Below, piece by piece: positions 50,692 through 55,080 of a stretch of DNA of 64,000 nucleotides; positions within the stretch are counted from its first letter, which is position 1; each line of letters opens with the position of its first letter. Below the pieces are notes generated by a model. The model was given only the letters and a program-made list of their open reading frames with translations. It did no database searches and was not told the DNA's origin. This DNA is from an uncultured Opitutia bacterium (GTDB lineage Bacteria; Verrucomicrobiota; Verrucomicrobiia; Opitutales; Opitutaceae), in NCBI GenBank assembly GCA_903855985.1, contig CAIOAO010000074.1, forward strand, positions 62,001 through 126,000. The letters run 5' to 3'. Position numbers and translations under genes: made by a program.

Positions 50692-51060
50692 CTAGGCCGG
50701 CACCCGGTCGCTCTTCGCCGCGCGTTCACCCTCGCACTGCGGCGAACCGCGCTCGAGGTCGCGGCACACCTGCGGGCGCCGCTCGTAAACCGTGCAAAAA
50801 AACTCCGGGCGGTTGTCCGGCGTGCGCCGCAACTCGAGGGCCGCGCAGTGGCCGCCGGTCATTTTCATGTAGGCGCGTTGGTGGATGAAGTGAGCCACCC
50901 GCCCGGCCGCGTCCTCAAGCCGCGCCCAGTCGTCGCCCGTCACCCGCACATACGTTTCCAGATGGGAAAAGCAGCAGACGCCACAGCGCAGGCAGTTGTT
51001 CGGCGGATTCACGGGGGTAAAACGCCCCCACACTCTGCCCGCCCCCGGTGAAGCGCGCAA
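50692..51060 (-). CDS. YkgJ family cysteine-cluster protein
   Basis: A small protein of about 106-122 residues with the YkgJ/zinc-iron chelating domain: CLRCGVCC near the N-terminus and FCTVYERRPQVCRDLERGSPQC near the end (quoted in part), eight or more cysteines in the family spacing. Such proteins are thought to bind zinc or an Fe-S cluster; the role is unknown. The start is uncertain: TTG 51060, GTG 51033 and GTG 51012 are all in frame, and no ATG exists. It is divergent from the CHASE2 cyclase, with two operator-like palindromes between them. Confidence 0.8.
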   Translation of the reverse strand: MRASPGAGRVWGRFTPVNPPNNCLRCGVCCFSHLETYVRVTGDDWARLEDAAGRVAHFIHQRAYMKMTGGHCAALELRRTPDNRPEFFCTVYERRPQVCRDLERGSPQCEGERAAKSDRVPA

Positions 51061-51094
51061 TCGTTTCGTCCCCCATCAGCCCCCCCCCGCGGGA

Positions 51095-51115
51095 GTGTAA
51101 CCTATTGGGTTACAC
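51095..51115. promoter_or_regulatory. Operator-like palindrome 1 before the cyclase gene
   Basis: GTGTAACC (51095-51102) and GGTTACAC (51108-51115) form perfect eight-base arms around a five-base centre. It resembles binding sites of dimeric helix-turn-helix regulators. A related palindrome lies 65 bp away (51161-51179). Confidence 0.5.
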
Positions 51116-51160
51116 ATTCAGGGAAACCGCCGGGTAAAGATCCTCCTGGCCCCGCTGGAA

Positions 51161-51179
51161 TGTCACCCAATGGGTGACA
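51161..51179. promoter_or_regulatory. Operator-like palindrome 2 before the cyclase gene
   Basis: TGTCACCCAATGGGTGACA is a 19-bp palindrome with perfect nine-base arms and one central base. It matches palindrome 1 in the pattern TGTMACC....GGKKACA. The centre-to-centre distance is about 65 bp, close to six helical turns. The GTG at 51174 lies within it, which argues that the cyclase starts further downstream. Confidence 0.55.
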
Positions 51180-51248
51180 CGGGCCCGGCCGGTTCGCGGG
51201 CGTGGATGCTCGCTTGCGGGTGGCGGCGGGCTGGCTCCTAATCGGCGC

Positions 51249-53297
51249 GTGGCTCCCCTTTCGCGCAACCCGCGGGCGATTCGCTGGCGCTGGCTCCTAC
51301 CGGTGGCGCTGCTGGTCGTGGCGTTTCATTTCTCGGCGTTCTGCCAGGCACTGGACCGGTCTTTCTTCGATGAGTCCAGCCGCCACCCGCTGCGGGCCTC
51401 TCCTCCGCCCGGCCAGTCCGCGCTGGTGCTGGTCGATGAACAAACCCTGTCTGCCCTCAGCCAGCAGGGGCTGCGCTGGCCGTTTCCCCGGGCGATTTTC
51501 GCCCAGCTGATTGTCGCACTGCAGCAGGCGGGCGCGGCCCAGGTCGTGGTGGATTTCACTTTTTTCGAGGAAACCGCCACGGAGCAGGACCAACTCCTGG
51601 CCGCGGTCGCCGCGGCCGCTCCGTCGGTGGTGCTCGCTCGCACTGCGGAGCGTCCGCCGGTTTTTTGGTCCAAGGCTTATCGGTCCGCCCATCCGCAGTT
51701 TTTTGGGAAAACCCGGACAGGTTTGGTGGAATTTAACGCCGACGGGGACGGCGTGGCCCGCATGTATGTCGTGCCGGGTTCTCTGGCCGCCGCCGCCTTC
51801 GACCCGCCCGCGCTCACCCCGGGTGGGCTCATTCGCTGGCACGGCGGGCTGGAGCAGGTTCGCGCGCAGGGCGTGCCGGTCCTCTCCGCCGCACCGTATA
51901 TCGCGGCGGGCAAACCCATCCTCGAACACCTCATCAACGCCGCTCCCGACCTGGATCCCGAGGCCGTAGCCCGGGCCCTCTCCGCCGAGCCGGCCCTGTC
52001 GGGCGAGCTGGCCGCCGCTGTGCGCGGTCACACGGTCTTTATCGGCGCGAACGCCAGCGGCACCTTTGACGTGAAGCCCCTGCCCATCGGCAAGGTTGAG
52101 CCGGGCGTGTTGCTGCACTGGACAGCGTGGACCAATCTCGCCGGCAACGGCTTCATCACCGCTTTGCCGCGCGCGGTCGTGCTCCTCGGAACCTTGCTCG
52201 TCATGGGCGTGATCATCTGGGCCGGCCATCATCGCACCACCCTCGTGGCGCCGATCGCAACCGCGGTCATTTTGAGCGGGGTCGTGCTGTTCGGCGCTTA
52301 CGCCGCAACGTCCGCCGGCTGGTTTTTCCCGCCGGCGACCCCACTCGCGGCGGTCTTGCTCACTTTGCTCGGCGTCGTGGCGGAGAGCTACTGGCTCGAA
52401 CAGGCGCGGAAGCGCGAGATTCAGGCGATGTTCGGCGCGTATGTGGACCCGGGGGTCGTCGCGCAACTGGTGAAGGACCCCGACTCCATCCGGCTTCGCG
52501 GCGAACGGCGCGAGGCCACGGTTTTTTTCTCCGACCTCGCCGGGTTCACCGACCTCTCGGAAAAGCTGCAGGATCAGCCCGAGCAGATGGTCGAGGTCGT
52601 CAACGCGTACCTCGACGAAACCAGTGAGTGCCTGCTCAACCACGGCGCGTATGTGGACAAGTATATCGGCGATGCCGTCATGGCCGTCTTTGGCGTGCCA
52701 TCACCTCTCCCCGACCACGCCCTCGCCGCCTGTCGCGCCGCCCTTGCTGCGCAAAAACTCATCGCCGGCATCAACACCCGCTACGCCTCCGCCCTCGGCG
52801 TGACCCTTGCCGTGCGCATCGGCCTCAACACCGGCGAGCTCATCGTTGGCAACGTCGGCTCCTCGCGCAAAAAAAACTACACCGTGATGGGCGACCCCGT
52901 GAACCTCGCGTCGCGGCTCGAGGGGGCGAACAAGACTTTCGGCACCCACATCCTGATCGGCGACGAGACCGCCCGCCGCGTGTCGGGCGTGCTCGCCACC
53001 CGGCCGCTCGCGCGGCTGCGCGTGAAGGGGAAGCAGGAGGCCATCGAGGTTCACACCCTGCTGGGTGAAGCCGCGGACCTGACTCCAAGGGAGCGCGATT
53101 TTCTGGCCGCCTACCTCGCGGGCTACGAGGCCTACGTGAACCGCCGCTTTGCCGACGCCGCCGCCGCCCTGGCCCGCGCCGACGCGCTGCTGCCTCATGA
53201 CTTGACCACCCGCCGGCTGCGGGAGGACTCTGCGCGGTACTCGCTGACCCCGCCCCCGGCTGACTGGGAACCGATTTTAACCCTCGAATCCAAATGA
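51249..53297 (+). CDS. CHASE2 sensor domain adenylate/guanylate cyclase
   Basis: A 682-residue membrane sensor enzyme from GTG 51249; a GTG at 51174 would add 25 residues but lies inside a palindrome. One N-terminal helix (about 12-31) is followed by an extracytoplasmic CHASE2 domain (about 32-300), three helices (about 306-382) and a class III cyclase domain (about 420-600). The metal-binding aspartates are in FSDLAGFT (about 427) and YIGDAVMAVFG (about 474). GLNTGELIVGNVG and the DPVNLASRLE region complete the site. It makes a cyclic nucleotide in response to an unknown outside signal. It overlaps the SH3-like gene by ATGA. Confidence 0.9.
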   Translation: MAPLSRNPRAIRWRWLLPVALLVVAFHFSAFCQALDRSFFDESSRHPLRASPPPGQSALVLVDEQTLSALSQQGLRWPFPRAIFAQLIVALQQAGAAQVVVDFTFFEETATEQDQLLAAVAAAAPSVVLARTAERPPVFWSKAYRSAHPQFFGKTRTGLVEFNADGDGVARMYVVPGSLAAAAFDPPALTPGGLIRWHGGLEQVRAQGVPVLSAAPYIAAGKPILEHLINAAPDLDPEAVARALSAEPALSGELAAAVRGHTVFIGANASGTFDVKPLPIGKVEPGVLLHWTAWTNLAGNGFITALPRAVVLLGTLLVMGVIIWAGHHRTTLVAPIATAVILSGVVLFGAYAATSAGWFFPPATPLAAVLLTLLGVVAESYWLEQARKREIQAMFGAYVDPGVVAQLVKDPDSIRLRGERREATVFFSDLAGFTDLSEKLQDQPEQMVEVVNAYLDETSECLLNHGAYVDKYIGDAVMAVFGVPSPLPDHALAACRAALAAQKLIAGINTRYASALGVTLAVRIGLNTGELIVGNVGSSRKKNYTVMGDPVNLASRLEGANKTFGTHILIGDETARRVSGVLATRPLARLRVKGKQEAIEVHTLLGEAADLTPRERDFLAAYLAGYEAYVNRRFADAAAALARADALLPHDLTTRRLREDSARYSLTPPPADWEPILTLESK

Positions 53298-55061: not shown

Positions 55062-55080
55062 GTGTAATTTCGCGTTACAC
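55062..55080. promoter_or_regulatory. Operator-like dyad before the Gfo/Idh/MocA gene
   Basis: GTGTAA (55062-55067) and TTACAC (55075-55080) flank a seven-base centre, 30 bp upstream of ATG 55111. The half-site GTGTAA matches that of the palindrome at 51095-51115. A common regulator is possible but not shown. Confidence 0.35.

Follow-up and report, generated by a model that had tools for sequence, protein, structure and literature searches.

Results

Two related palindromes between a YkgJ-like gene and a cyclase gene

What is the role of two closely related palindromes that lie between the genes for a YkgJ-like protein and a CHASE2/adenylate cyclase? The window analyzed here is the whole stretch of 64,000 nucleotides from the genome designated G000. 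A first-pass annotation read the pair as sites of a regulator that controls the divergent genes, on the background that dimeric regulators often loop between paired sites on the same DNA face. Sites A and B (Table 1) are two 19-bp near-palindromes, TGTMACCYAWTRGGTKACA, with a start-to-start distance of 65 bp and 81% identity across 31 nt. With up to three mismatches allowed, their joint pattern matches only these two sites in 64 kb and is absent from 100 dinucleotide shuffles, which confirms that the related pair is real. If the cyclase reading frame is taken at its greatest possible length, its start falls within site B. The beginning of this frame also contains GCTGGCTCCTA, an 11-bp direct repeat (51230-51240 and 51289-51299).

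Table 1. Features of the window around the palindromes and the rejected half-site.
Feature	Position	Strand	Remarks
Palindrome A	51095..51115 (core 51096-51114)	.	GTGTAACCTATTGGGTTACAC; predicted to be bound by the cognate HTH protein
Palindrome B	51161..51179	.	TGTCACCCAATGGGTGACA; same family as A
YkgJ-like CxxCxxCC protein gene	50692..51060	-	Start codon uncertain; neighbor only; name from the first-pass annotation
CHASE2/adenylate cyclase gene	51174..53297	+	Start uncertain, 51174 to 51303; neighbor only; name from the first-pass annotation
Claimed third half-site	55062..55080	.	GTGTAATTTCGCGTTACAC; rejected as a member

Both window sites are kept at equivalent places beside the YkgJ gene in G007 and G001, and the cyclase gene does not adjoin YkgJ and the sites in the G001 contig. 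The counterparts of site B read TGTAACC/GGTTACA in G007 and CGTAACC/GGTTACA in G001. In G010, a single degenerate site, CATAACCTATTAGGTTACT (CATAACC/GGTTACT), is located where site B would be. Stretches of 3.1-3.3 kb from eight other members of the genus (L032-L039) contain no match to the window sites at up to three mismatches. A similar half-site had also been claimed before a Gfo/Idh/MocA gene (TGTAATTTCGCGTTACA). Its TGTAA/TTACA arms are spaced 7 bases apart, not 9, it does not match the motif, and its arrangement is absent from the loci of two relatives with the same gene (L030 in G001 and L031 in G010); it was therefore counted as chance.

Dispersed copies show no tie to promoters

The core GTMACCYAWTRGGTKAC is present in 24 copies in G000 (2.94 Mb, 110 contigs), and the reversed-pattern control gave none. 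No copy lies wholly within a called gene, the window being 93.9% coding, and one copy (L025) extends a few bases into the end of a gene. These calls were made with a simple, home-made hexamer gene caller trained on G000 sequence, and in-gene calls elsewhere are approximate. The 19 site-bearing intergenic regions, counted by hand with L010 (contig end), L026 and L027 omitted, comprise 8 divergent, 8 tandem and 3 convergent regions, compared with 7.2, 9.1 and 2.7 expected from the intergenic base pairs of the window; counted per site, the figures are 11, 8 and 4. Judged by eye from translations, the neighbors are functionally mixed (aminomutase, aroA-like, DEAD-box, phosphate dikinase, potassium uptake and others). 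Orientations near the intergenic expectation and mixed neighbors together indicate that the set is not tied to promoters. Site neighbors were also sampled in five genomes: 38 genes were taken from G000, and 13-20 genes per genome from a portion of the sites in G013, G061, G131 and G211. Common to these samples are only the palindromes' own HTH locus described below, a helicase gene with an internal copy in two genomes, a weak DEAD-box match, and UvrA with copies at different places. Neither promoter enrichment nor common targets, the marks of a transcription-factor regulon, were found, with neighbors taken from part of the sites in four of the five genomes. The first-pass annotation had called for a genome-wide scan and had itself named random placement with respect to promoters as evidence against its reading. 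The 24 copies are placed in just this way, and looping control of the divergent pair is thus left unsupported.

The spacing of close pairs points in the same direction. Five close pairs in G000 are spaced by 59, 65, 67, 70 and 77 bp without helical phasing (p about 0.35), and phasing is likewise absent from G001 (n = 4, p about 0.30) and G007 (n = 5, p about 0.12), so that same-face looping was rejected. The low value in G061 (p 0.01, n = 6) results from four identical spacings of 54 bp, which suggests copying or constraint and not phasing. The 35-nt spacers of these four pairs are only weakly alike; a single comparison out of six (19/35) exceeds the 99% shuffle level. The palindrome sites have no T-tract, no terminator call and no Rfam match at gathering thresholds, and a terminator or known RNA was rejected on these grounds. 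By inspection, no GTAG or CGTC tetranucleotide tag is present at the palindrome ends.

Within the order, exact palindrome matches come from one family and are patchy there

The exact 19-mer was detected in 25 of 372 genomes of the order. All 25 are among the 77 genomes of the window's family, and none of the 295 genomes of other families within the order contains it. In a set of 252 family genomes, the 17-mer core is present in 97 with up to 73 copies, and reversed controls gave 0 throughout; its presence is patchy, even inside one genus. A placement like that of matS sites in the Ter macrodomain was hinted at by G012, in which copies (up to two mismatches) lie within 1.17-5.23 of 6.1 Mb, but contradicted by G013, in which copies are spread round the whole 5.9-Mb chromosome. 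Two far-apart G013 loci (L094 at 470-471 kb and L100 at 2.178 Mb) contain palindrome pairs about 345 bp apart with similar flanks, and L102 holds a version in which copies are separated by about 172 bp. At G006 contig ends (L274, L275), tandem units of about 200 bp each carry TGTCACGTAWTACGTGACA, and copy numbers in draft genomes are therefore probably underestimated.

A gene for a small, predicted helix-turn-helix protein is flanked by the same palindrome

In G000, one palindrome copy is located just before the start codon and another just after the stop codon of a predicted helix-turn-helix (HTH) gene of 118 aa (C74:250228-250581, outside the window), with genes for a dihydrouridine synthase and a MalY-type aminotransferase on either side; the same layout is found in G061. 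Homologues (E<=0.001) are present in 130 of the 252 family genomes, with up to 8 per genome, and none was found in the other 122. The flanks of the 30 best-scoring HTH loci, three of which have interrupted or partial reading frames, were scanned with at most one mismatch to the conserved arms. A palindrome is located 1-17 bp upstream of the start codon in 25/30 and between -5 and 49 bp from the stop codon in 23/30. In a set of 70 loci that partly overlaps these 30, matching palindromes (at least 15 of 19 positions equal) lie on both sides of the HTH gene in 33, compared with 0/29 control genes of the same loci. These 70 loci come from named genomes, 68 labeled Opitutae or Verrucomicrobia and two Akkermansia/Akkermansiaceae.

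The dihydrouridine synthase gene is present in 62 of 127 HTH loci, some of them repeat retrievals of one locus, and in 51 of the 62 it is joined by the MalY gene. This common neighbor argues for vertical inheritance of the main HTH lineage and leaves a mobile cassette unsupported for the main clade. A search with the profile found no relatives in viral contigs, and the G000 protein as the query found none in plasmids or phages; a phage or plasmid origin was rejected accordingly.

Four members of the HTH family were scanned. None matched a Pfam or NCBIfam model at cut-off, matches to PHROGs were weak, and no Y1_Tnp match was found. Sub-threshold matches to the YdaS_toxin, HTH_3, Phage_CI_repr and HigA models were observed, and a sequence search of the PDB returned no chain at E<=0.1. 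In the AlphaFold model (mean pLDDT 82.8, pTM 0.58), helices span residues 6-33, 51-63, 69-77, 81-88 and 97-111, and the C-terminal half has a Cro/CI-like arrangement. A fold search returned the XRE repressors CylR2, SinR, HipB and P22 c2 (best E 0.39, none at E<=0.001). No catalytic domain was recognized, and no enzyme domain able to copy DNA. The partner of the palindrome is thus predicted to be a small, approximately 118-aa Cro/CI-like (XRE) HTH protein, in place of the LacI-, GntR- or CRP-type regulator suggested in the first-pass annotation.

Protein and palindrome vary together

Other HTH members are flanked by palindromes of the same architecture and different sequence, here termed dialects, such as TGTCACGTAWTACGTGACA, TTTCACTTAWTARGTGAAA, TTTAACCATATTGGTTAAA, ACTAACCTAATAGGTTAGT and TGTCAACTATTAGTTGACA. 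Residues and bases were compared across 60 genes selected from 132 HTH records. Each gene needed a residue that could be read and one or more palindromes bearing the family signature, in which base 3 is T, the center is AWT and bases 1, 2 and 6 are free; identity was capped at 85%. One of these (L152) was scored with a spurious upstream palindrome, and its base 2 is G either way. Residue 81 is the first residue of the recognition helix. Arg at this position is accompanied by G at base 2 in 39/39 genes, Lys by G in 13/13 and Pro by a base other than G in 8/8. At base 1, T accompanies Arg 81 in 35 of 39 genes and A or G accompanies Lys 81 in 12 of 13. At residue 83, Arg is accompanied by C at base 6 in 54/56 genes and Thr by a base other than C in 4/4. 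The covariation at residue 81 was reached by 0 of 10,000 permutations, and protein and palindrome distances are correlated (Mantel r 0.68 with n=33 and 0.64 with n=14 after further thinning; 0 of 20,000 permutations); in these tests, as in those of co-occurrence below, kinship was handled only by the removal of close homologues, and some correlation follows from shared descent alone. The degenerate site B of G010 is in line with the pattern, as the G010 protein has Pro at residue 81. Judged from sequence, nothing argues more strongly than the residue-base pattern that the HTH protein reads the palindrome. Together with the flanking of the gene and the dialects, this pattern makes the window palindromes very probable binding sites of the HTH protein. 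The dimeric regulator of the first-pass annotation is therefore retained as a very probable reader of the half-site pairs, and its control of the divergent YkgJ/cyclase pair is not supported.

Gene and dialect travel together

An HTH homologue is present in 60 of the 66 family genomes with at least five core copies, compared with 70 of the 186 other family genomes, and the core motif is found in 78 of the 130 genomes with a homologue. Six genomes have at least five copies and no HTH gene, also by profile search: G008 (17), G067 (24), and G023, G219, G220 and G237 (6 each). G008 is 97% complete, and its 17 dispersed copies, mostly TGTCACCTAWTGGGTGACA among those listed, have no detectable partner gene. 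The gene may be in a gap, may have been lost recently, or the sites may be read by an unrecognized protein. Among seven genomes with a close homologue and no core, five have another dialect beside the gene, and G014 and G218 have no palindrome beside it.

Paralogues are accompanied by dialects of their own. G007 has a second HTH paralogue that is flanked by TTTCACTT-type palindromes, and its 29 matches to a degenerate pattern are all of TTTCAC or TTTAAC type; G000 and G001, which lack this paralogue, have 4 and 3 matches, with 3 each of these types. In G006, a paralogue is flanked by TGTCACGTAATACGTGACA, and all 24 degenerate-pattern matches are TGTCACGT. G011, with a paralogue like that of G006, has 17 degenerate-pattern matches of any dialect.

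Retention of sites between G000 and G007 was compared for two dialects. For the dialect whose gene is present in both genomes, 16 of 20 G000 loci have a site in G007, with L026 (a match inside a coding gene) excluded and the degenerate L025 and L027 included. Of six G007 sites of the TTTCAC dialect, whose gene is absent from G000, G000 retains one, with L170, the pair that flanks the HTH gene itself, excluded. The difference (Fisher p 0.0097) comes from a small sample picked by available synteny, in which only site-bearing G007 loci were compared and the four misses may be due to loss, to divergence or to gaps in the assemblies. At one TTTCAC locus, the G001 relic is a damaged palindrome, and at one G000 locus the palindrome is missing between alignable flanks. 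For the window dialect, most copies are at the same places in G000, G001 and G007, and no recent copying is seen.

Possible signs of copying and in-frame copies

Across the family, the arrangement of copies may point to copying. Doublets are spaced by 59-77 bp in G000 and 45-54 bp in G061, a 90-bp tandem array is present in G211, and repeats of roughly 200 bp are present in G006. Called genes contain 12 copies in the stretches sampled from G013, G061 and G211, each of the 12 in the sole stop-free frame; among 16 sampled G061 copies, 8 are in called genes. An epimerase-like protein has 36 extra residues at the palindromes (215-250, unmatched between adjacent residues of 3wj7). The G211 UvrA has about 60 extra residues at the palindromes compared with a solved homologue, in a gene that has other low-complexity insertions too. 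Several such in-frame insertions are visible in this gene (L256, C1), for example SSPLRAPSSKLAAPSSPLK and GHRSLDLGHC repeats, and other repeat elements may enter genes in frame in G211 as well. Two further genes were rejected as proof of insertion: fmt of G061 has an insertion of only 2-4 residues at the palindrome, and a RumA-like gene shows no clear extra segment.

Outside the core, the flanks of a copy pair with each other better than with those of other copies in several genomes. The permutations that reached the observed value numbered 3 of 2000 in G006, 5 in G007 and 19 in G061; pairing is weak in G000 (48 of 2000), and G211 gave 0 of 2000 with n=13, two of which are near-identical copies. 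It is absent from G013 (802 of 2000) and not significant in G131 (168 of 2000, n=8). The HTH-flanking set (n=62, 0 of 2000) pools many genomes and was not counted as evidence. A hairpin intermediate could underlie this pairing, as could correction of palindromes by template switching, a process that can likewise produce it. In G131 (L255) and G211 (L262 and L264), some copies extend into palindromes of about 45-47 bp that are perfect or nearly so and whose arms vary from copy to copy.

Discussion

The predicted binding of the palindromes by the HTH protein is well supported by sequence comparison; how the palindromes spread and what binding does are inferred. A homodimer of the approximately 118-aa Cro/CI-like protein would occupy each palindrome. 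The protein would most likely repress its own gene, given the copies that flank it closely at the start and stop codons. The other 22 copies in G000, including the window pair, would form a REPIN-like population that needs the HTH protein to persist. Gene and palindromes would shift jointly into dialects, and new copies would arise by copying, beyond point mutation. Binding at sites A and B would have, at the most, a local effect, by modulating or blocking the promoters of the YkgJ and cyclase genes. The G000 protein is predicted to bind tightly to TGTAACCTATTGGGTTACA and TGTCACCCAATGGGTGACA and more weakly to TTTCACTTAATAAGTGAAA. As a whole, this account, in which a homodimer binds the palindromes and a dispersed REPIN-like population depends on it, appears moderately probable. 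A more specific version is put forward tentatively, as somewhat short of probable: a transposase-free analogue of the REPIN-RAYT system, in which palindrome families, each read by its own small non-enzymatic HTH protein through a simple residue-base code, persist and co-diversify with it in one family of bacteria and are copied by hairpin-dependent activities of the host, with the bound protein as guide or protector.

Several other explanations were weighed against dependence on the HTH protein. An ordinary regulon would make the HTH protein a global transcription factor and the palindromes its operators, those at YkgJ and the cyclase included, possibly with two dimers bound cooperatively. A cognate XRE-type protein does exist together with its palindromes, no G000 copy is wholly within a called gene, a called start codon lies about 50-185 bp away outside the three convergent regions (nearer at the HTH gene's own site), and sites are kept at the same places between species. 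This reading nevertheless seems rather unlikely, as convergent sites occur in 3/19 regions as expected for random intergenic placement, hardly any neighbor genes are common to the five genomes, copies are found in frame within coding genes, spacing in G000 is unphased, and a weak scan of 50950-51350 detected no sigma-70-like promoter. Chromosome-organizing sites of the matS/MatP or Noc kind, at which a protein bridges or marks the nucleoid, would also explain tens of dispersed, specific, orientation-independent sites with a dedicated small DNA-binding protein, and the confined distribution in G012 fits them. The copies all round the G013 chromosome, the 122 of 252 family genomes with no homologue, which is not what a core organizer would show, and copy numbers that range from 0 to 73 within the family make such a role very unlikely.

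Two further proposals place the palindrome in known classes of repeat. If it acted in RNA, hairpins in transcripts would serve as terminators, sequester ribosome-binding sites or protect mRNA. Flank pairing within copies in G006, G007, G061, G000 and G211 and a palindrome that adjoins the HTH start codon would be expected of such elements. But the T-tracts, terminator calls and Rfam matches are lacking, placement is independent of the direction of transcription, and the flank pairing is not shown by G013 and G131 and is also explicable by template-switch correction, so that this function is hardly to be expected. Classical REPs or REPINs spread by a RAYT (Y1 HUH transposase), with the HTH gene as a passenger, would account for the REPIN-like doublets, tandem clusters and intergenic placement, and one Y1_Tnp gene is present in G000. 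By inspection, however, this gene is bounded by a different palindrome, GGGGTCAGCCCCTAAC; G010, G006 and G002 carry the palindrome family with no Y1_Tnp match, G003-G005 have Y1_Tnp matches but 0-1 copies per search, the palindromes track the HTH dialect residue by residue, and no GTAG or CGTC tag is apparent. A RAYT origin was rejected on the first two of these grounds and is regarded as extremely improbable. At the Y1_Tnp (RAYT-like) locus itself (L046, C100:35896-39225), the GGGGTCAGCCCCTAAC-type inverted sequence is located on both sides, at about 880-900 and 1900-1925.

Bacterial genomes commonly contain REPs and REPINs, repeats whose spread is attributed to RAYT transposases. In-frame insertion in coding genes is known from the palindromic elements of Rickettsia, which resemble the present copies but are longer; to our knowledge, they have no cognate DNA-binding protein. 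In the REPIN-RAYT systems of Pseudomonas and E. coli, the RAYT gene is vertically inherited and flanked by the same palindrome, and the partner is a transposase (PMC8049555, PMC3116915). The present system shares with them short palindromes that are dispersed, mostly intergenic and often grouped as doublets or in tandem, a gene with the same palindrome on its flanks, and copies that are commoner where the gene is present (PMC8049555, PMC3116915). It is unlike them in that the gene encodes an approximately 118-aa HTH protein with no Y1/HUH match, the palindromes are perfect, of an odd length of 19 bp and also found in frame inside genes, and some genomes have several paralogues with separate dialects. 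The predicted C-terminal fold, the palindromic site and the likely autoregulation resemble those of XRE autorepressors (SinR, CylR2, HipB, P22 c2), from which the present protein differs by an extra N-terminal helix and a conserved TRRPG..TPMWN segment, and its sites by their location on both sides of the gene and at tens of places elsewhere. REPs tagged with GTAG/CGTC are reported to be highly enriched in Opitutus terrae (PMC3733652). They, too, are palindromic and come from a bacterium in the same group, whereas the present palindromes have no visible tag and no RAYT link; the term 'helix-turn-helix' does not appear in the text of that paper. The literature searched, in which subscription papers are little covered, on REPIN/RAYT, repeats of Opitutaceae or Verrucomicrobia, XRE sites and the motif strings yielded no description of this system.

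The REPIN-like repeat architecture here follows a protein with no recognized catalytic domain. The 60 thinned protein-palindrome pairs would constitute a natural recognition code for a Cro/CI-like fold, in which one residue appears to switch one base, and natural cases exist in which gene and dialect are both missing. With such a code and such natural absences, the persistence of dispersed palindromes in genomes would become directly testable.
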